Shown: piece after piece, positions 8,290 to 18,821 of the stretch
Position numbering within the stretch: the first letter of the stretch is position 1
Layout of the letters: each line of letters begins with the position of its first letter
NCBI RefSeq assembly: GCF_947077775.1
Contig: NZ_CAMTTE010000001.1
Coordinates: forward strand, 1,116,001-1,180,000
Reading direction: 5' to 3'
Source of the DNA: Salinibacter pepae
GTDB taxonomy: Bacteria > Bacteroidota > Rhodothermia > Rhodothermales > Salinibacteraceae
Length of the DNA: 64,000 nucleotides
Translations under genes and position numbers: made by a program
The notes under the pieces: model-generated
The model's database searches: none
Told to the model about the DNA's origin: nothing
The model's input: the letters and a program-made list of their open reading frames with translations, nothing else

Positions 8290-8927
8290 GGTGACCCCGC
8301 ACCCGCGGGGATAGACCCCTAAGCCGACGTTTGAGATTTGTGCCCGCTGCGGTGACCCCGCACCCGCGGGGATAGACCCCATAGCTCGGCCCACCAGGAC
8401 TCTCCTTCAAGGGTGACCCCGCACCCGCGGGGATAGACCCTGCTTCAGAAACAGGACTACTACATTGTCGATGGTGACCCCGCACCCGCGGGGATAGACC
8501 GTGATCCGCACAGATTGGGAGGAGACAGAAGAAGGTGACCCCGCACCCGCGGGGATAGACCCTTCCGGCTCGCCGGATGCCCCGTCGCCTTGCCGGTGAC
8601 CCCGCACCCGCGGGGATAGACCTCGAACAAGGGATGATAGGAGGACCAGCATGGAGGTGACCCCGCACCCGCGGGGATAGACCTTCTCCGAGCGCTGCCG
8701 CAATGAGTGTCGGAAGGGTGACCCCGCACCCGCGGGGATAGACCTCGCAAGCCTGCCACAATCAAGCTCCGACACAGGGTGACCCCGCACCCGCGGGGAT
8801 AGACCTGCTTTGTGTGCCGCGGCGAGCCGCATCCAGACGGTGACCCCGCACCCGCGGGGATAGACCTACGGGATACACTCGCGATACACCCCGAATACAG
8901 GTGACCCCGCACCCGCGGGGATAGACC
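8290..8927 (+). CRISPR. CRISPR array 2, 11 repeats and 10 spacers
   Basis: Repeats of 28 bases start at 8290 and every 61 bases to 8900; all spacers are 33 bases. Every repeat begins GGTGACCCCGCACCCGCGGG, differing from array 1 only at repeat positions 4-5 (GA for AG). The hairpin stem is unchanged. No spacer is shared with array 1. The last repeat is intact, so the array has either not decayed or has lost its older end. No cas gene is adjacent; Cascade and Cas1-Cas2 from the upstream operon presumably serve both arrays. Confidence 0.98.
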
Positions 8928-8973
8928 CTCTCATGCCGGCACATGCGGGGAGGGACAACGGCTCCTCCAGGGA

Positions 8974-8997
8974 CCAAGCCCCCTCCTCGGGGCTTGG
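8974..8997 (+). terminator. Perfect 9-bp hairpin after array 2
   Basis: CCAAGCCCC (8974-8982), loop of six, GGGGCTTGG (8989-8997). Only a weak T-rich stretch follows. It lies between the end of array 2 and the arginine leader. It could end the array 2 transcript. Confidence 0.45.
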
Positions 8998-9083
8998 AAG
9001 CGCTTCCCTTCACATTTTCATCATCGAATCCGTCGCCCATCGACTTGATCGTTCCGGCGGCGCCCGCTATCGTGAGGAGCACT

Positions 9084-9197
9084 ATGACACGCCAGCCGAC
9101 CCTCATTGCGCCAACGACCCGACGTCGAGCCCGACGTGTGCGACGACTGCACATCTCTTCTACGGCTCGACCGGCGTCCCAGGCGTCAGATGAGTAA
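9084..9197 (+). CDS. Arginine-rich leader peptide of the arg cluster
   Basis: A 37-codon ORF starts at ATG 9084, preceded by GAGGAG at 9074-9079, an excellent ribosome-binding site. It ends with TAA at 9195-9197. Codons 13-21 (9120-9146) encode RRRARRVRR, seven Arg in nine. These seven use only CGA and CGT, while genes here favour CGC and CGG. The peptide has no recognisable domain. An intrinsic-terminator hairpin follows 46 bases after the stop and argG starts 107 bases after it. This is the layout of a ribosome-mediated attenuator: stalling at Arg codons when charged tRNA-Arg is scarce would favour read-through into argG. The role is inferred; no transcript data are available. Confidence 0.65.
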   Translation: MTRQPTLIAPTTRRRARRVRRLHISSTARPASQASDE

Positions 9198-9242
9198 GGC
9201 TTAGCCCCTCCCATTTGACGCGGCATCGCCGCCTTCCCCTGC

Positions 9243-9276
9243 AAAGGCGCTGGTTCTCACGAGCCAGCGCCTTTTT
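9243..9276 (+). terminator. Intrinsic terminator / putative arginine attenuator before argG
   Basis: AAAGGCGCTGG (9243-9253) pairs perfectly with CCAGCGCCTTT (9264-9274) around a ten-base loop, followed by TTTTTTGTG. It is in the correct orientation to stop transcription before argG (ATG 9304). A competing stem, CGCCTT (9230-9235) with AAGGCG (9244-9249), would sequester the left arm. This alternative pairing could be the antiterminator, possibly gated through GCGTC (9183-9187) pairing with GACGC (9217-9221) near the leader-peptide stop. Confidence 0.7.
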
Positions 9277-9303
9277 TGTGTTTGTGCCTAGTGTTCCAGT
9301 CTC

Positions 9304-10545
9304 ATGCCCATCGCGCTCGCCTTTAGCGGAGGCCTCGACACCTCCTTCTGCGTTCCGTACCTGCAAGAAACCCACGACACGCCGGTCCACACCGTGACGG
9401 TCGACACCGGCGGCCTGACCGACGCCGATCGTGCGGCGGTGGCGGCCCGAGCAGACGCGCTGGGCGCCGACGCCCATCACCTCGTGGACGGCCGGGCGCG
9501 GCTCTACGACGACCACCTTTCGTACCTTATCGAGGGCAACGTTCTGAAGGGCGGCGTCTACCCACTGTGCGTGGGGCCGGAGCGCATCGTGCAGGCGCGG
9601 GCCGTGGCGGAGGTGGCGCAGGCAGTCGGGGCCGCTACGGTCGCCCACGGCTCCACCGGGGCCGGCAACGACCAGGTGCGGTTCGACGTGGCCCTGCAGC
9701 TCGTGGGCGACGCCCTCGACGTGATTGCCCCGATTCGCGAGCTCGGCCTAAGCCGGGATGCCTCGACGGCCTACCTCGAGGCGCGCGGCTTTTCGGTGCC
9801 GGACGACACGACCGACTATTCCATCAACCGGGGCCTCTGGGGCACCACGATCGGCGGCAAGGAGACGCTCACGGCGAAGGCCCCGCTGCCGGCGGACGCC
9901 TACCCGGACACGACGGCCCCCGCCGACGCGCCGGACGCGCCGCGCACCCTCACGGTCACGTTTGCGAACGGGCTCCCCGTGGCCGTCGACGACGCGTCCC
10001 TCTCGGGGGTCGAGGTCGTCGAGACGCTCAACGAGATCGGCGGACGGCATGGCGTGGGGCGGGACGTCCACGTGGGGGACACCATCCTCGGCATCAAGGG
10101 GCGGATCGGGGTCGAGGCGCCCGCGGCCCAGATTCTGATTACGGCCCACCGCGAGCTCGAAAAGGTCGTGCTTTCGGAGCAGCAGCAGGTGCAGAAGCAA
10201 AAGCTCGGCGACGTCTACGGCCGCCTGCTCCACGAGGGCCAGTACTTCGACCCGGTGATGCGGGACGTGGAGGCGTTCCTCGACCACAGTCAGGACGTCG
10301 TCGCCGGCACCGTCACGGTGAAGCTCTTCAAAGGCCGCGCCACGGTGCAGGGCGTCGACAGCCGCCACTCCCTGTTCGACGCCGGCACGGCCACCTACGG
10401 CGAGGACAATGCACTGTGGGACGGGCGCGACGCGGCGGGCTACACCACGCTCGCCGCCGTCCCGTCCCTCCTCGCCAAAAAGGCCCGCGCCGACGCGGAT
10501 CCCCCGGGCTCCAAGCCGATGATCGCCGAATCGAACACGGGATAG
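9304..10545 (+). CDS. argG: Argininosuccinate synthase
   Basis: The product is 413 residues, normal for ArgG. The ATP pyrophosphatase loop SGGLDTS is at residues 8-14. It also shows VYPLCVGPERIVQ, the substrate region VAHGSTGAGNDQVRFD and INRGLWGTTIGGKE. It joins citrulline and aspartate with ATP to give argininosuccinate in the cytoplasm, the next-to-last step of arginine synthesis. Its partner argH is the last gene of the cluster. The ATG at 9304 directly precedes the first conserved strand. It is the first structural gene behind the Arg-rich leader peptide and terminator, so it is the likely main target of attenuation. Confidence 0.96.
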   Translation: MPIALAFSGGLDTSFCVPYLQETHDTPVHTVTVDTGGLTDADRAAVAARADALGADAHHLVDGRARLYDDHLSYLIEGNVLKGGVYPLCVGPERIVQARAVAEVAQAVGAATVAHGSTGAGNDQVRFDVALQLVGDALDVIAPIRELGLSRDASTAYLEARGFSVPDDTTDYSINRGLWGTTIGGKETLTAKAPLPADAYPDTTAPADAPDAPRTLTVTFANGLPVAVDDASLSGVEVVETLNEIGGRHGVGRDVHVGDTILGIKGRIGVEAPAAQILITAHRELEKVVLSEQQQVQKQKLGDVYGRLLHEGQYFDPVMRDVEAFLDHSQDVVAGTVTVKLFKGRATVQGVDSRHSLFDAGTATYGEDNALWDGRDAAGYTTLAAVPSLLAKKARADADPPGSKPMIAESNTG

Positions 10546-10597: not shown

Positions 10598-11731
10598 ATG
10601 ACCGACGACGCCTTCCAGACGGGTCCCGTCGACAAAATCGCCTCTAGCACCGCCCCCTGCGGCATCGACTCGCCGATCACGCTCTCCCCCTACGTCGTGG
10701 CCCAGCACGGCTACGTGGTCGTGGTGCGCGCGCTCGACGAAAAGGACCAGTACGACGAGGTCGAGTGCAGCGACGGCGCCTTTCGCCACATCCGGGAGGG
10801 AGACGTGCTCGTGGGGACGCTCGGCGGACGACAGGCGCTCAAAGGGTATAGCGGACGGGTCCCCCGCCACATTGCCCCCGGCGATACGCTGCACGTGCTC
10901 AACCTGGGCGGGCTCGTCGGCGAGTGCACCGCGGCCCACCCCAACCTTGGGCCGGCCCTGCCGGTGGAGGTGCTCGGCGCCGTGATGGTAAAGCGGAACG
11001 ACCAGTGGACACACGCCCGGATCCAGGAGGACGCGCTGGAGATGCGGCACCGCCTGGCGACGTCGGTCCCGCTCGTCACGGTCAGCGGCACGGCCATGGA
11101 GACGGGCAAGACCGAGGCGGCCTGCCGCATCGTGGAGGGGCTGTCGGCGCGCGGGCTTCGGGTGGGCGCCGCCAAGCTGACGGGGGCGTCGCTCATGCGC
11201 GACGTGCGCCGGATGCGGGCGCACGGGGCCACGGCCGTCTCCACCTTCACCGACGCGGGGATTGCCTGCACCGTGGAGGACGCGATCACCCCGATCGCGA
11301 AGGGCGTGATCCATCACCTCAACGAGACGGAGGACCTGGACGTGATCGTGGCGGAGATGGGCGACGGGTTCGTCGGCTACTACGGCGTCGACGACCTCCT
11401 GACGGACATGGAGCTGCAGTCCTTCATCGAGGCGCACGTCGTGGCGGCGACCGACCTGGCCGGAGCGTGGGCCGCCGAGCGCACCTTCCGCGAACGCTAC
11501 CGCACCGGTATCACCGCACTCACCGGCCCCGTCACCGACAACGACGTGGGGCGCCGCTACATCACACAGCGGCTCGGCGTCACCGCGCTCAACGCCCGCC
11601 GGCAGGGCACCGCGCTCGTGGACGAGGTCGTAAAGGCTCTCCCGGCGTTGGCTTTTCCGGAGGAAATCGAAGCGACGGCCCCCGCAGCACCGCCGTCTTC
11701 CGACGAAAAACTCACAGTCGCGGCGGAATGA
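10598..11731 (+). CDS. Uncharacterised P-loop NTPase in the arginine cluster
   Basis: The product is 377 residues. The N-terminal half (about 25-130) looks like a beta-rich domain (PYVVAQHGYVVVVRALDE, then GDTLHVLNLGGLVGEC). At 163-172 a Walker A motif, SGTAMETGKT, starts a nucleotide-binding domain with a later acidic strand, LDVIVAEMGDGF. The fold resembles the deviant P-loop enzymes of the dethiobiotin synthetase/MobB/DUF1611 type. I do not recognise a named family. It lies 52 bases after argG and about 90 before argC on the same strand, so it is probably co-transcribed. An arginine-related or regulatory role is guilt by association. No N-acetylglutamate synthase motif is seen. Confidence 0.75.
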   Translation: MTDDAFQTGPVDKIASSTAPCGIDSPITLSPYVVAQHGYVVVVRALDEKDQYDEVECSDGAFRHIREGDVLVGTLGGRQALKGYSGRVPRHIAPGDTLHVLNLGGLVGECTAAHPNLGPALPVEVLGAVMVKRNDQWTHARIQEDALEMRHRLATSVPLVTVSGTAMETGKTEAACRIVEGLSARGLRVGAAKLTGASLMRDVRRMRAHGATAVSTFTDAGIACTVEDAITPIAKGVIHHLNETEDLDVIVAEMGDGFVGYYGVDDLLTDMELQSFIEAHVVAATDLAGAWAAERTFRERYRTGITALTGPVTDNDVGRRYITQRLGVTALNARRQGTALVDEVVKALPALAFPEEIEATAPAAPPSSDEKLTVAAE

Positions 11732-11805
11732 CGCGTGATTCGTGATGCGTGAAGAGTGGCACTGGCAGCTGAGCTCTCGCCTCACATTTCACGCCTTCCC
11801 CCCTC
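11732..11805. repeat. Intergenic GTGATGC/TTCACGC repeats before argC
   Basis: The gap holds CGTGATTCGTGATGCGTGAA and, 40 bases later, CCTCACATTTCACGCC, its approximate complement. It belongs to the dispersed degenerate family seen in the cas region. Together the two halves could form a weak hairpin. Confidence 0.55.
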
Positions 11806-11824
11806 CCCAATTTTACTGCATCCT

Positions 11825-12889
11825 ATGCCACAACCTGCGCACTCTTTTCCGGCGTCCCCAACAACGATTTCCCACATCGGAGTTCTCCACGGCGCCGGCT
11901 ACGTCGGCGGCGCACTGATTCGCCTGCTCGCCGCACATCCCCACGCCGCCCTCCACACGGTGACCAGCCGGACGTTCGCCGATCGGCCCGTCGGCGCGGC
12001 GCATCCGTCCCTCCGCGGGCAGGTCGATCATACGTTCACCGCTCCGGACGAGGTTGCCTTCGGCTCACTCGACGCCCTTCTCGTGGCGGCGGAGCACGGC
12101 CGCAGCATGCAGGTGGTGCCCGGCATCCTGGAAGACGGCTTCGACGGCCCCATCATCGACCTGAGCGCCGACTTTCGGTTCCGGGACCCGGCGGTCTACC
12201 CCGAGTGGTTCGATACGGCGCACCCGGCCCCCGGCCTGCTGGCCGACGCCGTGTACGGACTGCCGGAGTGGAGCGACGAGATCGGGGGGGCGTCGCTCGT
12301 GGCCACGCCCGGCTGCTACGCCACCGGCATCGCACTGGCGCTGGCCCCGCTCGCGCAGCGGGACGTCCCCTTCACCGCCCACGTGACCGCCCTCACCGGC
12401 GCATCCGGGGCGGGCGCCACGCCCTCGTCGGCCACCCACTTCCCCGACCGCGACGGCAACGTGCGCCCCTACAAGGTGCTTCAGCACCAGCACGGCCCCG
12501 AAATCCGGCAGACGCTCGGCCGCCACGTGACGCTCGATTTCGTCCCCGCCTCCGGCCCGTGGACGCGTGGCATCTGGGGCACGGCCCACATCGAGTGGCC
12601 GAAGGCGATCGATCCAAACACGGCATCCCCGTGGTACGAGGAGGCGTACGCCGACGCGCCGTGCGTCCGCTGCTCGTCAGACAGACTGCCTTCGCTCCAG
12701 CCCGCGGTGGGCACCCCGTTCTGCGACCTCGGGTGGAAAATGGACGGCTCGACCCTCGTCGTCGGCTTTGCCCTCGACAACCTGCTGAAGGGCGCCGCGA
12801 GCCAGGCCGTCCAGATCCTAAACCGCACGCTCGGCCTCCCCGACACCGCCGGCCTCCTTCCCGAGCCCACCCCCGCTCCGGCCGCCTGA
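11825..12889 (+). CDS. argC: N-acetyl-gamma-glutamyl-phosphate reductase
   Basis: The product is 354 residues from ATG 11825. The NADP-binding loop GAGYVGG is at 23-29 and the catalytic cysteine is Cys164 in ATPGCYATG. Later come GASGAGATPS and the HQHGPEI segment typical of the ArgC family. It reduces N-acyl-glutamyl phosphate to the semialdehyde. The ATG at 11825 is preferred over an upstream in-frame start because the earlier codons fall in the repeat region and do not match the family. Confidence 0.93.
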   Translation: MPQPAHSFPASPTTISHIGVLHGAGYVGGALIRLLAAHPHAALHTVTSRTFADRPVGAAHPSLRGQVDHTFTAPDEVAFGSLDALLVAAEHGRSMQVVPGILEDGFDGPIIDLSADFRFRDPAVYPEWFDTAHPAPGLLADAVYGLPEWSDEIGGASLVATPGCYATGIALALAPLAQRDVPFTAHVTALTGASGAGATPSSATHFPDRDGNVRPYKVLQHQHGPEIRQTLGRHVTLDFVPASGPWTRGIWGTAHIEWPKAIDPNTASPWYEEAYADAPCVRCSSDRLPSLQPAVGTPFCDLGWKMDGSTLVVGFALDNLLKGAASQAVQILNRTLGLPDTAGLLPEPTPAPAA

Positions 12890-12983
12890 AGAGCGCGACA
12901 CACGGGGGGAGACGCCTCCCCTCCCTCCCCCACGCTCTTGCGCCCCCACAGTCCAACGCACACTCACAATTCAGGCATCTCCG
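12890..12983. other. C-rich gap between argC and argD
   Basis: The gap contains runs such as GGGGGGAGACGCCTCCCCTCCC, in which the purine run pairs with the following pyrimidine run to give a short stem near 12905-12925. Similar purine/pyrimidine-skewed sequence is found after argF' and near 32.5 and 46.8 kb. No gene is seen. Confidence 0.4.
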
Positions 12984-14171
12984 ATGGATTCTGCAGAGAC
13001 GATTGCCCTTGAGCAGCAGCTTGAGATTCCCACGTACGACAAGATGCCGATGGCGCTCGTGCGGGGGAAAGGGCCCTACGTGTGGGACGCCGAGGGCACC
13101 CGGTACCTCGACTTCTACGGGGGGCACTGCGTGTCGCTGCTCGGCCACTGCCACCCGACCGTCGTGGCGGCCGTGCAGGCCCAGGCCGAGCAGCTCCTGT
13201 TCTACTCGAACGTTGCGCACAGCCCGGTCCGCGCCCGGGCCGCCCGGCGGCTGGCGGACCTGGCCCCCGACGGCCTCGGCAACGTCTTCTTCGCCAACTC
13301 CGGCTCGGAGGCCAACGAGACGGCCCTCAAGCTGGCCCGGAAATACACGGGCCGGTCCGGCGTCGTGGCGATGAAGCAGGGCTGGCACGGACGCACCCTC
13401 GGCAGCCTCGCCACCACGCACGACGAGACGTACCGCGCCCCCTACGCGGACGTGCTTCCGGAGACGACCTGGGTCCCGGTGGGCGACCTGGACGCCGCGG
13501 AGGCGGTGCTGTCCTGCGAGGACATCGCCGCCGTCCTCCTGGAGCCGATCCAGAGCATCGCCGGCATGCGGGCGATGCCCGCCGACTACGTGCAGGGCCT
13601 CCGTGCCCTCTGTGACGAGCACGGCACGCTTCTGATTTTCGACGAGGTGCAGACGGGCGTGGGGCGGACCGGCACCTTCTCCATGAGCGCCCCCCTCGGC
13701 GCCACACCGGACCTCATTGCCCTCGCCAAGAGCCTCGGGGCCGGGGTGCCCGTGAGCGCCGTCCTCGTGGACGACGCCGTGGCCGCGACCGTCGAGCCCG
13801 GCGACCAGGGCTCCACGTTCGGCGGGGGGATGCTCGCGATGGCGGCCGTGGAGGCCACCCTCCGGACGCTGGTGGAGGACGACCTGATGGCCCGGGCGAC
13901 CGACGTCCACGCACAGGTGGCCGAGGCCGTGGGGCCGGTCGTCGAGGCGGTGCGCGGGCGCGGCTGCCTGATGGGGCTCAAGCTGGACCGGCCGGCCGAG
14001 CCCGTGATCGATGCGCTTCGCGACCAGAATGTGCTCGTCGGCGGCTCGTCGGCCCCGCACGTGATGCGCCTGATGCCGCCGCTCGTCGTCTCGGACGACG
14101 ACGTGACCGCCTTCGCGGCGGCGCTCCACGCCGCCCTCGACGCCACCTCGGCCCCTGCCAGAGCACACTGA
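12984..14171 (+). CDS. argD: Acetylornithine-type aminotransferase (class III, PLP)
   Basis: The product is 395 residues. Class III transaminase features are present in order: DFYGGHCVSLLGHCHP near the N-terminus, ANSGSEANETALKLAR, the WHGRTLGSLATT segment, LLIFDEVQTGVGRTG and the PLP-lysine region LIALAKSLGAGVP. It converts N-acyl-glutamate semialdehyde to N-acyl-ornithine using glutamate. Placement between argC and the carbamoyltransferase supports ArgD rather than other class III enzymes. The ATG at 12984 fits the usual N-terminal length. Confidence 0.92.
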   Translation: MDSAETIALEQQLEIPTYDKMPMALVRGKGPYVWDAEGTRYLDFYGGHCVSLLGHCHPTVVAAVQAQAEQLLFYSNVAHSPVRARAARRLADLAPDGLGNVFFANSGSEANETALKLARKYTGRSGVVAMKQGWHGRTLGSLATTHDETYRAPYADVLPETTWVPVGDLDAAEAVLSCEDIAAVLLEPIQSIAGMRAMPADYVQGLRALCDEHGTLLIFDEVQTGVGRTGTFSMSAPLGATPDLIALAKSLGAGVPVSAVLVDDAVAATVEPGDQGSTFGGGMLAMAAVEATLRTLVEDDLMARATDVHAQVAEAVGPVVEAVRGRGCLMGLKLDRPAEPVIDALRDQNVLVGGSSAPHVMRLMPPLVVSDDDVTAFAAALHAALDATSAPARAH

Positions 14172-14240
14172 CGTGACAACCCCGACGCGTGGCGCCCCGT
14201 CGATCTTTCCCCTTTCTCCCTGCGATTGACCTCCTCCGCG

Positions 14241-15299
14241 ATGCCAACGTCACCGCCCTCCACAACCTCGTCCTCCTCCAGCACGGACGGCCTGCAGCAC
14301 ATCCTCCGCGTCGACGCGGTTTCGGACGCCACCTGGGACGCGCTCCGTCACACCGCCGTGCGGCATCGACACGACGACACCCTGCACGCCGGGGCCGCGT
14401 CGGGCTCGTCGCTCGGGCTCGTCTTCATGAACCCCTCGCTCCGCACCCGCACCTCGATGGAGGGCGCCGCCGCGCACCTGGGCGCCCGCCACACGACCCT
14501 GGTGCCGGGCAACGGCAGCTGGGCGCTCGAATGGGAGCCGGGCGCCGTGATGGACGGCGCGGCGGCCGAGCACGCGAAGGACGCGATCGGCGTGCTATCG
14601 CGCTACCACGACGCCCTGGGCGTCCGCGTCTTCGCGTCCGGCACCGATTACGGCGCCGACGCGCAGGACGCGCTCATTCACGCCATTGCGGAGCACGCCA
14701 CCGTGCCGGTCATCAACCTGGAGTCCGCCTGGGCGCATCCGTGTCAGGGCCTCGCCGACGCGGCCCTGCTCACCGAGCGGTACGGGGACGCCCTTGCGGA
14801 CAAAACCTTCGTCCTCTCGTGGGCGCCGCACCCGAAGCCCCTGCCGATGGCCGTGCCGAACACGGCGCTCCGCACGGCGGCCCGCTGCGGGATGGACGTG
14901 ACCGTGGCCCGCCCCGACACGCACGCCCTCGACCCGGGGGTGATGGCCGAGGCGGAGGCGCTGGCCGAGACGCAGGGCGGATCGGTCTCGGCGACGAGCG
15001 ACCAGGCGGCCGCGGCGGAAGGGGCCGACGTGGTCTACGCCAAGTCGTGGGGCGGCCCGCTCGTGTACGAGAACCCGGAGGCCGAGTCCGAGGCCCGGGC
15101 GGCCCGTTCCGACTGGCGCATCACCGCGGACCTGATGGCACGCACCCGAAACGGCGCGTTCCTGCACTGCCTCCCCGTCCGCCGTAACGTGGTGGTGGAC
15201 GACGCGGTGCTCGATGGGCCCCACGCCGCCCACCTCGATCAGGCCGAATACCGCCTCCACGCGCAGAAGGCGCTTCTCCAGTACGTGTGGACCCTCTGA
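14241..15299 (+). CDS. argF': N-acetyl- or N-succinyl-ornithine carbamoyltransferase (ArgF')
   Basis: The product is 352 residues from ATG 14241. The carbamoyl-phosphate loop SLRTRT is at 66-71. It also has WAHPCQGLAD, WAPHPKPLPMAVPN, VVYAKSWG and HCLPVRRN. HPKPL plus CLPVRRN are features of acetyl- and succinyl-ornithine transcarbamylases rather than ordinary ornithine transcarbamylase. HPCQ and AKSWG recall the Xanthomonas acetylornithine enzyme; WAPHP recalls the Bacteroides succinylornithine enzyme. The acyl group therefore cannot be settled by eye. It would make N-acyl-citrulline, which needs the deacylase encoded downstream. A TTG five codons upstream is less likely as the start. Confidence 0.9.
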   Translation: MPTSPPSTTSSSSSTDGLQHILRVDAVSDATWDALRHTAVRHRHDDTLHAGAASGSSLGLVFMNPSLRTRTSMEGAAAHLGARHTTLVPGNGSWALEWEPGAVMDGAAAEHAKDAIGVLSRYHDALGVRVFASGTDYGADAQDALIHAIAEHATVPVINLESAWAHPCQGLADAALLTERYGDALADKTFVLSWAPHPKPLPMAVPNTALRTAARCGMDVTVARPDTHALDPGVMAEAEALAETQGGSVSATSDQAAAAEGADVVYAKSWGGPLVYENPEAESEARAARSDWRITADLMARTRNGAFLHCLPVRRNVVVDDAVLDGPHAAHLDQAEYRLHAQKALLQYVWTL

Positions 15300-15310
15300 G
15301 CGCGGGGGAA

Positions 15311-15391
15311 TGAGAGCGCGGGAGCATGGGCGTACTCCTCTACACTCTTGGGAAAGACCCCAATCCCCCGCGCCCCCACGCTCCCGTGCTC
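15311..15391. repeat. 19-bp imperfect inverted repeat between argF' and argB
   Basis: GAGAGCGCGGGAGCATGGG (15311-15329) is matched by CCCACGCTCCCGTGCTCTC (15373-15391) with two mismatches. The 43-base middle contains CCCCAATCCCCCGCG, which complements the region just before the left arm. No U-tract follows. It could be a dispersed palindromic element, an mRNA stability or processing hairpin, or a partial terminator inside the arg operon. Confidence 0.65.
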
Positions 15392-15432
15392 TCTTCTTGC
15401 TACTTAAACGACGCGAAGCAGTATCAATCCTG

Positions 15433-16236
15433 ATGACCAGTAAGACGAAAGCGCCGACGGTAATCAAGGTCAGCGGATCGCTCCTCGACGAGCCGAACGC
15501 ACTGGCCGACCTCTGGCCCGGCGTCCAGGCGCTGCACGAGGACGCCCCGGTGGTCCTCGTCCACGGTGGCGGCACGCAGATGACGGCCCTCGCGGATCGG
15601 CTCGGCCACACGCCGGAGCGGGTCCAGGGCCGTCGCATCACGACCGACCTCGACCTCAAGATCGCGCAGTGGGCCATGCGGGGCTCGCTCAACACGACCC
15701 TCGTGTCGGAGGCCCAGCAGCACGACCTCACCGCGGTGGGGGTGTCGGGGGCCGACGCCGCCCTGGTCCAGGTGTCCAAACGCCCGGCGTGGGACGTCGA
15801 CGGGCGGACCGTCGACTTCGGATGGGTCGGCGACATCGAGCACGTCGACCCCTCCCTTCTGGAGGGATTGATGGCCCGGTCGCTGGTGCCCGTCGTGGCC
15901 CCCCTCGGCATTGACGACGAGGGGCAGGTCTACAACGTGAACGCCGACACGGTTGCCCGTGCGCTGGCCGAGGCCCTCACGGCCGACCCGTTGCTCTACG
16001 TCACCGAGGCGGGGGCCGTGCGCCGGGACGCCGAGAATCCCGCGTCCCGCCTGGCCACCTGTCCCCCGGGCACCGCCCGGCAGGGAATCGCGGAGGGGTG
16101 GATCGCAGGCGGCATGCGCGTCAAGGTCGAAACGGCGCTCGACGCCCTCGACGGTTCCGTTGGCGCAGTGTATATCTGCGGCCCGAGCGACCTCCTGTCT
16201 CGGTCGCAGGCCACGGAGGTCGTACCGGAGGCGTGA
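15433..16236 (+). CDS. argB: Acetylglutamate kinase-like amino acid kinase
   Basis: The product is 267 residues from ATG 15433. The amino-acid kinase fold is seen in VIKVSGSLLDE (phosphate-binding lysine and glycines), LVHGGGTQM, VGVSGADAALV, VNADTVARALAEAL and the C-terminal GGMRVKVETALDAL. It phosphorylates N-acyl-glutamate. It lacks an added acetyltransferase domain, unlike the fused synthase-kinase found in some bacteria that use the acetylcitrulline route. The length is typical. Upstream in-frame codons run through the inverted repeat and are not expected to be translated. Confidence 0.9.
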   Translation: MTSKTKAPTVIKVSGSLLDEPNALADLWPGVQALHEDAPVVLVHGGGTQMTALADRLGHTPERVQGRRITTDLDLKIAQWAMRGSLNTTLVSEAQQHDLTAVGVSGADAALVQVSKRPAWDVDGRTVDFGWVGDIEHVDPSLLEGLMARSLVPVVAPLGIDDEGQVYNVNADTVARALAEALTADPLLYVTEAGAVRRDAENPASRLATCPPGTARQGIAEGWIAGGMRVKVETALDALDGSVGAVYICGPSDLLSRSQATEVVPEA

Positions 16237-16262
16237 TGCGTGAATTGTGATGCGTGAATCGT
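16237..16262. repeat. Intergenic GTGATGCGTGAA tandem repeat
   Basis: Directly after the argB stop the sequence reads TGCGTGAATTGTGATGCGTG and continues with AATCG, two degenerate copies of a 13-14 base unit. It is a member of the dispersed family also present in the cas genes region and before argC. Confidence 0.55.
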
Positions 16263-16357
16263 GCCCGGTGCCTCTGCTCCCCCACGACATGCGTTTCACG
16301 TTTCGAGAGGCGAGAATCGGGCAACGACGTGATACATCAACCGACTTCCCGGGTGCA

Positions 16358-17440
16358 ATGGCACTTTCTTCGACGAACACAGCCGCCGTCGACTTCCTCA
16401 AGGCCCTCGTTCGCATCCCCTCCCTCACGGGCGAGGAGGCGGCGATCGCCGGCTTCGTAGAGCAGCACGTCCGCCGCGCCGGGGTCGATGTGCTCCGGCA
16501 CGAGGACAACGTGGCGTTTGGGATCGGCGAGGGCGACGACACGCTGCTCCTCAACTCGCACCTCGACGTCGTGCCGCCCTCCGACGACCATCCGTACGAC
16601 CCGTTCGAGCCGGTCGAGACAGACGGCGTCCTCTACGGCCGGGGCGCCGTGGACGCGAAGGCCAGCGGCGCCGCGATGACGACGGCGCTGCTCTCCCTGG
16701 CGGCGGACGGCTGGGCCCCGAATGGCCGGCTCCTGGTCGGCCTCACGACCCACGAGGAGTCCGGGGGCACGAAGAACGGGCTGCAGGACCTTCGCCCCAA
16801 CCTTCCGTCCCTGTCCGCCGCCGTTGTCGGGGAGCCCACCACGCTCCGCCCCTGCGTCGCCCAGAAGGGCCTTCTCATCCTGAAGATCCACGCCCGGGGG
16901 ACGGCCGCACACGCCGGACGGTCGCACCTCGGCGACAATGCGATCCCCGCGGCGATGACGGCGATTCAACAGCTCGAGGATCTTTCCCTCGACCGGGCGG
17001 ACCCGCACCTCGGTGCGCCGACCGCAACCGTCACCACCATCGAGGGGGGCGAGGCGCACAACGTGGTGCCCGAGCACTGCGTCTTCACCGTTGACCTCCG
17101 CACCACGCCCGCCTACACGCACGACGAGATTGCGGGGCTGGTGTCCGAAGCGGTAGACGCGGACTTGGAGGTCTACAGCGACCGCCTCGTGCCCTGCGCC
17201 ACGCCCGAGGACGCGCGGATCGTCCGGGCCGCCCGGGCCGCCCGCCCCGACGCCGAGCCCTTCGGCTCCCCGACCTCCTCGGATTGGGTCTTCCTCCACG
17301 ATGTGCCCACCGTCAAGATGGGACCGGGCCCGAGCAACCGCTCCCACACCGCCGAAGAGCGGATCGACGTGGACGAGGTGAAGCGGGCCGTCACCGTCTA
17401 TCGGGACCTAATCCGGGCCTACTTTTCGCGGGCCGCGTAG
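16358..17440 (+). CDS. argE': M20-family deacylase, likely N-acyl-citrulline/ornithine deacetylase (ArgE/DapE-like)
   Basis: The product is 360 residues from ATG 16358. M20 metallopeptidase motifs are present: LLNSHLDVVPPSD (first metal His and active Asp), YGRGAVDAKA (bridging Asp), THEESGG (catalytic Glu pair) and a C-terminal SNRSHTAEERI with the last metal His. The dimerisation domain includes RGTAAHAGRSHLGDNAI. In a cluster with an ArgF' enzyme the natural substrate is N-acyl-citrulline, giving citrulline for ArgG. An upstream in-frame start at 16247 is less likely because that region is repeat-like and has no homologous sequence. Confidence 0.88.
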   Translation: MALSSTNTAAVDFLKALVRIPSLTGEEAAIAGFVEQHVRRAGVDVLRHEDNVAFGIGEGDDTLLLNSHLDVVPPSDDHPYDPFEPVETDGVLYGRGAVDAKASGAAMTTALLSLAADGWAPNGRLLVGLTTHEESGGTKNGLQDLRPNLPSLSAAVVGEPTTLRPCVAQKGLLILKIHARGTAAHAGRSHLGDNAIPAAMTAIQQLEDLSLDRADPHLGAPTATVTTIEGGEAHNVVPEHCVFTVDLRTTPAYTHDEIAGLVSEAVDADLEVYSDRLVPCATPEDARIVRAARAARPDAEPFGSPTSSDWVFLHDVPTVKMGPGPSNRSHTAEERIDVDEVKRAVTVYRDLIRAYFSRAA

Positions 17441-17507
17441 GGCCGAACGGGAGGCCCCCGGAAACGCAGCCCCCCACCCTCTCCACTCTCACACCCCCGC
17501 ACCCCAA

Positions 17508-18821
17508 ATGACTGCCCCTCTCTGGCAAAAAGACGCCACGCCCGCGACCGACGACTGGGCCCACCGCTTCACGGTCGGGGACGACTACGAATGGGACCGC
17601 CTGCTGCTGCCCTACGACGTGCGGGCGAGCCGCGCCCACGCCTGGGGCCTCCGCCAGATCGACGTGCTTTCGGAAACGGAGTGGACGCGGATCGGCGACG
17701 CCCTAGACGCCCTGCTCGACGCGTTTGAGGCGGGCGACGTGACCGTGACGCCCGAGGACGAAGACTGCCACACCGTGATCGAGCGGTTCGTGACCGAGCG
17801 CGCCGGGGCGGCCGGCGAAAAGCTGCACACGGGGCGCTCCCGCAACGACCAGGTGCTCGCGGCGCTCCGGCTCTACCTCCGCGACGCCCTCGCCGCGATC
17901 GGGGGCCGGGCCGCCGCCCTCGCCGACGCGCTGTGCGATCTCGCGACCCGACACCCGGACGTTCTCATGCCGGGCTACACCCACCTGCAGCGGGCCATGC
18001 CGTCCACCGCCGCCCTCTGGGCCCTGGGGTACGCGGAGACGCTGGCGGGCGACCTCGATGCCCTCCGCCATGCCCGCCGCCGGATTAACGTGTCCCCCCT
18101 CGGCAGCGCCGCGGGCTACGGCGTGCCCGTGATCGACCTGCCGCGCGAGGCCGTGGCCGACCGCCTCGGCTTCCGCGCCGTGCAGACCCACGCCACGGCC
18201 GTGCAGCTGAGCCGGGGCAAGCATGCACTCGCCGTGGGCCACGCCTGCACGCAGGTCGGTGCCACCTGCAACCGCCTCGCGTCCGACCTCGTCCTCTTCG
18301 CCACCGCCGAGTTCGACTTCGTGGACCTACCGCCGGAGCACTGCACCGGCAGCAGCATCATGCCGCAGAAGCAGAACCCGGACGTGCTGGAGCTGGCGCG
18401 GGCCTACCACCACCGCCTCGCCGCCCAGATGCAATCCCTCGCCACCGGCCCGTCGAACCTGCCGGGCGGCTACCACCGCGACCTCCAGCTCACGAAAGCG
18501 GCGGTCCTGCGCAGCGTGGAGATGACATCCGATGTCCTCACCGCGCTCGCCGAAGTGGTGCGGGGCGTCACGTTCAATCCCGACCGGACGCGGGCCGCGT
18601 GTGCCCCCGACATTCTCGCCACCCAGCGGGCGCTGGAGCAGGTCGCCGAGGGCGTGCCCTTCCGCTCTGCCTACCAGCAGGCCGCGGATGCGGAGCCGGG
18701 CCCTGTCGATCCCGGTGCCGTTCTCGACGCGTACGAGACCGACGGAACGCCCGGCCAGGAGCGGCCCGACCGCGTCCGGAGCCGGCTCGACGCCCACGGC
18801 GACTGGGTCGTGACGCCGTAG
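17508..18821 (+). CDS. argH: Argininosuccinate lyase
   Basis: The product is 437 residues. It carries the fumarase/aspartase superfamily signature GSSIMPQKQNPD, the catalytic segment MPGYTHLQRAMPS, and near the front HTGRSRNDQVLAALRLY. It splits argininosuccinate to arginine and fumarate, completing the pathway started by argG at the other end of the cluster. It is the last gene of the run. The next gene, terC, converges on it with a gap of only 13 bases, and no clear terminator hairpin is visible. Confidence 0.96.
   Translation: MTAPLWQKDATPATDDWAHRFTVGDDYEWDRLLLPYDVRASRAHAWGLRQIDVLSETEWTRIGDALDALLDAFEAGDVTVTPEDEDCHTVIERFVTERAGAAGEKLHTGRSRNDQVLAALRLYLRDALAAIGGRAAALADALCDLATRHPDVLMPGYTHLQRAMPSTAALWALGYAETLAGDLDALRHARRRINVSPLGSAAGYGVPVIDLPREAVADRLGFRAVQTHATAVQLSRGKHALAVGHACTQVGATCNRLASDLVLFATAEFDFVDLPPEHCTGSSIMPQKQNPDVLELARAYHHRLAAQMQSLATGPSNLPGGYHRDLQLTKAAVLRSVEMTSDVLTALAEVVRGVTFNPDRTRAACAPDILATQRALEQVAEGVPFRSAYQQAADAEPGPVDPGAVLDAYETDGTPGQERPDRVRSRLDAHGDWVVTP

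Follow-up and report, generated by a model that had tools for sequence, protein, structure and literature searches.

The cluster of arg genes in Salinibacter pepae (order Rhodothermales) begins with argG and is preceded by a short open reading frame (ORF) rich in arginine (Arg) codons, which is followed by a predicted intrinsic terminator. These features lie in a 64,000-nucleotide (nt) stretch of contig NZ_CAMTTE010000001.1, the whole of which is referred to here as the window (Table 1). An initial annotation of this DNA had proposed that the short ORF is the leader of an attenuator. Judged from the sequence and from modelled folds, the best reading of the locus is indeed a ribosome-mediated transcription attenuator that very probably senses charged tRNA-Arg.

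The leader and its candidate promoter

The leader ORF encodes a peptide of 37 residues, MTRQPTLIAPTTRRRARRVRRLHISSTARPASQASDE. Sequence and translation confirm the earlier description of 37 codons with seven Arg codons among nine, all CGA or CGT, in a cluster that reads CGA CGT CGA GCC CGA CGT GTG CGA CGA. The terminator with its T-run (predicted at -24.7 kcal/mol for 9243-9274) was also recognised correctly, although its stem had been given as 11 bp and its distance from the leader stop as 46 nt, and these are 14 bp and 45 nt. Two elements that define an attenuator are thus at hand, namely a leader ORF with codons for the amino acid of the operon and a predicted intrinsic terminator ahead of the first gene; the protecting pairing between the first two leader segments (1:2) is clear in the modelled fold of the window. 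The seven genes said to follow argG are present, six of them matching arg genes, and the strand and spacing of the eight ORFs suggest that they share transcription. The second ORF of the cluster (377 residues) has a weak match to MobB alone. Further upstream, a CRISPR-type repeat array (about 8290-8928, 61-nt spacing) ends about 120 nt before the candidate leader promoter.

Table 1. Features of the argG leader region and of the genes behind it
Feature	Position	Strand	Description
Candidate promoter	9045-9073	+	Consensus match: -35 TTGATC 9045-9050, 17-nt spacer, -10 TATCGT 9068-9073
Leader ORF	9084-9197	+	37 codons, ATG at 9084, TAA 9195-9197
Segment 1	9116-9131	+	Pairs with 9164-9178 if ribosome-free (minimum free energy folds)
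Regulatory Arg codons	9120-9146	+	7 Arg in 9 codons; five CGA, two CGT
Segment 2, antiterminator left arm	9169-9178	+	Inside leader ORF; 10-bp helix with 9246-9255
Segment 3	9238-9256	+	9246-9255 with 9169-9178, 9238-9241 with 9180-9183; 9243-9256 is also terminator left arm
Intrinsic terminator (predicted fold)	9243-9277	+	14-bp stem 9243-9256 / 9261-9274, 4-nt loop, T-run to 9277
argG, argininosuccinate synthase	9304-10545	+	TIGR00032 above cut-off, E 1.7e-94
Seven further ORFs	10598-18821	+	First 10598-11731, then six matching arg genes: argC, argD-type transaminase, N-acetylornithine carbamoyltransferase, argB, ArgE/DapE-type deacylase, argH

The last base of the candidate -10 box lies 10 nt ahead of the leader ATG. 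Consensus matching finds a -35 box starting with TTG and a TANNNT -10 box before 54 of the 68 leaders that were assembled (see below), 17 or 18 nt apart where listed, and no promoter at 14. Promoter-like boxes that score at least 8 of 12 occur at 49 of the 68 loci versus 32 of 1300 shuffles. With the first in-frame ATG after the -10 box taken as the start codon, the two are separated by 6-11 nt at 45 of the 54 promoter-bearing loci and by 15-46 nt at the other nine; families f14 and f13 do not keep to the short spacing. Since transcription typically starts about 7 nt past the -10 box, the 5' ends of most leader messages would coincide with the AUG or lie a few nt from it, and the messages are thus probably leaderless.

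The initial annotation took GAGGAG at 9074-9079 for the ribosome-binding site of the leader, a role that is not borne out. This motif directly adjoins the -10-like TATCGT (9068-9073), a Shine-Dalgarno-like 4-mer precedes the nearest leader ATG at just two of the 68 loci, and the position of the motif is not kept in loci L002-L004. On the first two of these grounds, GAGGAG is probably not a ribosome-binding site.

Conservation of the leader ahead of argG

Related loci were surveyed with a strict detector, which calls an ORF of at most 60 codons with at least 5 Arg in 10 codons, whose stop lies 10-75 nt ahead of a hairpin that carries a T-run and has an energy of -12 kcal/mol or lower. Within the GC-rich 64-kb window the detector also fires in a second frame of the leader and at five other places, so that a single occurrence is weak evidence and conservation has to carry the case. 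An Arg-rich ORF could arise by chance, being common in GC-rich DNA, and the hairpin could just end upstream transcription, such as that of the CRISPR array; in favour of this explanation are the nearness of the array and the five other places, where the Arg count is exactly 5 every time. However, the detector fires at 56 of 87 argG loci of the order, in 12 of 14 families, and in none of 870 dinucleotide-shuffled upstream regions. The same layout recurs in AT-richer families with other neighbouring genes, and it includes an antiterminator that coevolves with the terminator, as described below. Conservation by itself already makes chance unlikely, and a coincidence of this kind is very improbable.

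The 31 loci missed by the detector comprise all 16 of family f15, all six of f14, six of 20 in f5, two of four in f2 and one of 16 in f1. Family f14 has a sparser Arg leader with a terminator of like kind, and when looser and hand-assigned cases are counted, an Arg leader is found at 67 of the 87 loci. Together with L087 these form the set of 68 leaders, which leaves out the 16 f15 loci and L021, L049, L164 and L165, where no leader was seen. The 87 upstream loci are L001-L050 and L131-L167, of which L027, L043 and L044 come from genomes below the completeness limit of the argG survey. In that survey argG was matched in 87 of 103 genomes of the order, some matches being fragments and that in G005 being doubtful. 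No match was obtained in eight genomes that are at least 92 percent complete (G001, G012, G014, G015, G035, G056, G076 and G099), for which auxotrophy, a replaced enzyme and missing contigs are candidate explanations.

A model of the leader, run over the 103 genomes with stricter filters, gave at least 24 matches with E < 2e-6, all adjoining argG among the matches listed; 14 of the 24 come from genomes used to build the model and 10 from outside it. Of the weaker matches, L276 and L277 were examined, and L277 was rejected, because it reads as an ordinary terminator at the end of a succinyl-CoA ligase gene. In G000, the genome of the window, the terminator pattern has a single occurrence and no further copies.

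The element extends beyond the order. The wider sample of the class consists of 40 picked loci. Named contigs link some loci to taxa: L051-L053 belong to Rhodothermales, L087 to Balneolales, and L076 and L108 to Balneolaceae. In families f17-f21 of the class, 15 of 19 sampled loci carry an Arg-rich ORF and a terminator in the roughly 400 nt ahead of argG. The element is missing at L175, L185, L206 and L207, and thus from the single f19 locus. The initial annotation had tied its proposal beforehand to conservation of the Arg codons among homologous leaders, and with 56 of 87 loci in the order and 15 of 19 in f17-f21 the proposal survived this check.

The peptide itself is less constant. Close relatives (L001-L003) share most of it, consistent with the idea that the ORF encodes a functional small Arg-rich protein and that the terminator is coincidental. 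Outside the genus, however, little is common beyond the Arg cluster, and where a peptide tail is conserved within a family, as is CEDCV in f20, it coincides with segment 2 of the leader RNA. The probability of a functional protein is therefore close to negligible.

Arrangements of another kind occur in two families. In family f16, 11 of 21 loci (L186, L189, L192, L193, L195, L196, L199-L201, L203 and L204) have a short Arg-containing ORF that ends about 85-130 nt before the ORF preceding argG, and several of these short ORFs end in Arg codons at the stop, such as MQKSLAHRIERTVRRIRRRR in L195. The ORF preceding argG in L186, the only such ORF searched, encodes a GNAT acetyltransferase. A small hairpin follows the short ORFs, with no clear T-run or intrinsic terminator seen, and f16 may therefore possibly use a different Arg-sensing design. 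Another f16 locus, L205 (G171), has an Arg-rich leader and terminator before a gene of the ornithine/aspartate carbamoyltransferase family that lies upstream of argG, the leader ending about 1250 nt ahead of argG. In f15, seven loci of genus g23 (L037, L039, L138, L140, L143, L154 and L166) carry no Arg leader and share, by eye, the stretch GATCCAAGATTG..GCATGCGTTGAA shortly before argG.

Antiterminator and terminator exclude each other and coevolve

The stem that was proposed to compete for the left arm of the terminator exists. Segment 2, which lies inside the leader ORF, can form a 10-bp duplex of -17.1 kcal/mol with segment 3 (2:3), and since segment 3 contains the left arm of the terminator (3:4), the two structures are mutually exclusive. 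The 220-nt leader folds with a z of -4.6, and one of 200 shuffles folds as well. In the minimum free energy (MFE) fold of the window without a ribosome, segment 1 pairs with the region of segment 2 and the terminator is left to form. When the Arg codons are covered and the RNA ends with segment 3, the MFE fold pairs segment 2 with the left arm of the terminator. Folding with a ribosome footprint on the Arg codons, a check that had been suggested with the original proposal, thus predicts a switch.

The 2:3 pairing was compared across 30 genera, each represented by its first listed locus. Among the leaders, the terminators of L153, L025, L026, L048 and L131 and the reading frames of L153, L141, L158 and the six f14 loci were assigned manually; pairs were not counted on the alignment, because segment 2 is off by one base there in L001 and L002. 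The cognate 2:3 duplex has a mean energy of -16.96 kcal/mol. Permuting the arms among the genera gives a mean of -13.56 (standard deviation 0.46) with a best value of -15.53, so that none of 20,000 permutations reaches the cognate value, and shuffling the spacer gives -12.81 kcal/mol (standard deviation 0.43). In 23 of the 30 genera, the cognate duplex is better than the mean obtained with the arms of other families. The arms differ between families while still pairing, as in GGAACCGGCGC / GCGCCGGTTCC in f3, TGGACTG / CAGTCCA in f4, ACGGATC / GATCCGT in f5 and GAAGATT / GGATCTTC in f20. Segment 2 and the terminator arm thus coevolve. For 1:2, the cognate energy is reached by 31 of 20,000 permutations, a signal weaker than that of 2:3.

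The predicted probability of 2:3 also depends on the ribosome. With a ribosome occupying up to five of the first Arg codons, it averages 0.71 versus 0.31 in free RNA and is higher in 28 of the 30 genera; in the window it is 0.87-0.92 versus 0.00. This difference is partly built in, because duplex energy in the very sequence under test served to choose the helix and because the free RNA is longer. Shuffling of the 5' part serves as a control for the built-in component. It raises the free 2:3 probability to 0.46 when nucleotides are shuffled (Wilcoxon p 0.001) and to 0.41 when codon order is shuffled (p 0.024), the native value being lower than the shuffled one in 22 and 20 of the 30 genera, respectively. 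In these predictions the native segment 1 therefore appears to hold segment 2.

The leader might instead act through translation or Rho, by exposing the argG start or by blocking Rho, and not through the intrinsic terminator. A precedent exists in Salmonella, where stalling at Arg codons of orf34 governs Rho-dependent termination and mRNA decay of speF (PMC6386406; this and the papers below are cited from excerpts), and the short Arg-rich ORFs of f16 have no evident intrinsic terminator. However, the leader is separated from argG by a strong terminator whose left arm coevolves with segment 2, which makes such a route improbable.

Proposed arginine sensing and its place among known attenuators

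The choice of Arg codons in the leaders differs from that in the genes. With one leader taken per genus, 80 of the 187 Arg codons in the leader clusters are CGA, compared with 43 of 665 in the argG genes at these loci; CGG shows the opposite, with 7 of 187 versus 176 of 665. The eight ORFs of the window use CGA for 8 of 202 Arg codons. CGU and CGC are the predominant Arg codons of the other sampled families apart from f21, where CGA predominates. Among 45 tRNA matches in G000, ARAGORN reads four as tRNA-Arg, with anticodons CCG, CCT, TCG and GCG (L229, L235, L237 and L240), and none as tRNA-Arg with ACG, an unusual way of reading the CGN box. The tRNA set may be incomplete, because one match (L250) has no readable anticodon and a tRNA-Ile with GAT was not found among the 45. 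Sensing would appear to lean on the tRNA that reads CGA.

The textbook regulator of arginine genes is ArgR. In other bacteria arginine genes are also controlled by T-boxes, whereas no conserved RNA structure was observed upstream of the arginine operons of Actinobacteria, according to the excerpted part of the same study (PMC1262725). The terminator could accordingly be under the control of a protein or of a ligand-binding RNA (an ArgR-like repressor, a T-box or a riboswitch), with the ORF being incidental, and the well-conserved sequence of the terminator arm fits this possibility. Control of the cluster by ArgR was rejected since the regulator was not found in G000, which has no match to PF01316, a profile that rings in nine of 14 control genomes, and none to TIGR01529. 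A T-box, riboswitch or other Rfam element was likewise rejected for lack of a curated covariance-model match: in the window all families stay below their gathering scores, and three matches at 8990-9400 are far below their cut-offs. Moreover, the Arg codons are kept in frame with start and stop, and the arm changes along with segment 2, so that a protein or ligand acting on the terminator is quite improbable.

Across the order, TIGR01529 matches two of 103 genomes, neither over the curated cut-off, and only the match in G073 is convincing. The five matches in G037, each of 44 residues with equal score (E 3.3e-5), likely represent a repeated unrelated element. In G073 the match (E 1.9e-30) lies 31 nt before an argG (L165) that is 49 percent identical to that of the window and has no leader found. 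The adjacency of an ArgR-family gene to a divergent argG that lacks the leader suggests gene exchange that brought its own regulator.

Attenuation by stalling at Arg codons, the interpretation offered at the outset, thus has the support of a conserved leader, a coevolving stem and a predicted switch of folds. Transcription would start at or a few bases from the leader AUG, and the ribosome would start on a nearly leaderless message. When arginine is plentiful, the ribosome would pass the CGA/CGU cluster and segment 2, after which the Arg-codon region would trap segment 2 (1:2), the terminator 3:4 would form and transcription would stop at about 9276-9280. When charged tRNA-Arg is low, the ribosome would wait at 9120-9146 and cover segment 1, leaving segment 2 free; 2:3 would then form once segment 3 is made and before segment 4 exists, and the polymerase would proceed into argG and beyond. 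Judged from its preservation in relatives, the leader probably turns the cluster on when arginine is short.

Several observations weigh against this interpretation. No leader was seen at the loci left out of the leader set, and none of the 21 sampled f16 loci has an Arg-rich ORF with a terminator before argG. Family f15 has neither the leader nor a match to ArgR, so that loss of ArgR alone does not predict the leader. A usable 2:3 helix is absent in three of the 30 genera (L020, L022 and L028). A cruder fold test, in which the stalled RNA began too late and any upstream pairing was counted, was flat (0.61 versus 0.58, with stalled above free in 20 of 30). A ribosome at the stop codon would leave segment 2 of the window uncovered, and in most genera its cover of this segment would be partial. 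Finally, the complete terminator is the MFE structure even when segment 1 is covered, and the decision must therefore be kinetic; in the modelled folds, it would have to fall while segment 4 is still being transcribed.

Attenuation has been treated as a race between polymerase and ribosome (PMC1183508). The leader resembles the trp-type attenuator in having many codons for the amino acid concerned, in its predicted 1:2 and 2:3 pairings and in its 3:4 terminator (PMC1183508). It differs from the classic attenuator in its specificity for arginine, in the position of segment 2 within the ORF and in its probably leaderless message; the terminator is also clearly more stable than 2:3, whereas in trp 2:3 and 3:4 are similar (PMC1183508). 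A leaderless arrangement has parallels elsewhere. In Sinorhizobium meliloti, the attenuator small RNA of rnTrpL / peTrpL starts at the leader AUG (PMC10117765), as the candidate described here would, although it concerns tryptophan and a member of the Alphaproteobacteria. The polycysteine ORFs of mycobacteria are likewise short and leaderless and contain consecutive codons for the sensed amino acid, but this is cysteine, and they are said to act on translation of downstream genes (PMC9031893).

Arg codons as sensors have been described in another setting. The speF leader orf34 of Salmonella uses consecutive Arg codons to sense arginine, but it precedes an ornithine decarboxylase gene, works through Rho, RNase G and exposure of the ribosome-binding site, and has two Arg codons and no cluster (PMC6386406). 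For carA of Pseudomonas, which serves both arginine and pyrimidine synthesis, a brief mention states that P. aeruginosa produces a leader peptide and that attenuation was predicted in a P. syringae strain (PMC4997734). As of 2010, Proteobacteria and Actinobacteria were the only groups with known leader-peptide systems, to which a paper of that year adds hisS of Firmicutes (PMC2965389). Its excerpted part makes no mention of arginine, and that of another paper contains no Arg attenuator (PMC8632094). In the open-access literature, no leader-peptide attenuator of arginine synthesis was recognised, in agreement with the initial statement that arginine is not among the classic cases; subscription papers were mostly outside this scope, and novelty is unproven.

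For other amino acids, control of biosynthesis by leader-peptide switches is well established, but to our knowledge arginine is not usually listed among them. The mechanism proposed here is the classic one, its specificity for arginine is apparently undescribed, and no described case was found for this amino acid or this lineage. We consider it rather likely, with moderate confidence, that the leader is the first ribosome-mediated attenuator of arginine biosynthesis, that it dates from the ancestor of the class that comprises Rhodothermales and Balneolales, and that it is leaderless, replaces ArgR and in Rhodothermales is tuned by CGA codons that, in the genome of the window, apparently need the UCG tRNA-Arg. 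A lineage-wide Arg attenuator in the absence of a detectable ArgR would fill a gap in the list of attenuated pathways and would extend the mechanism to a phylum in which no described case was found. The order alone offers 67 natural variants with differing stems, codons and promoters in which arginine codons may be compared as sensors, and the leader is a compact candidate for an arginine biosensor.
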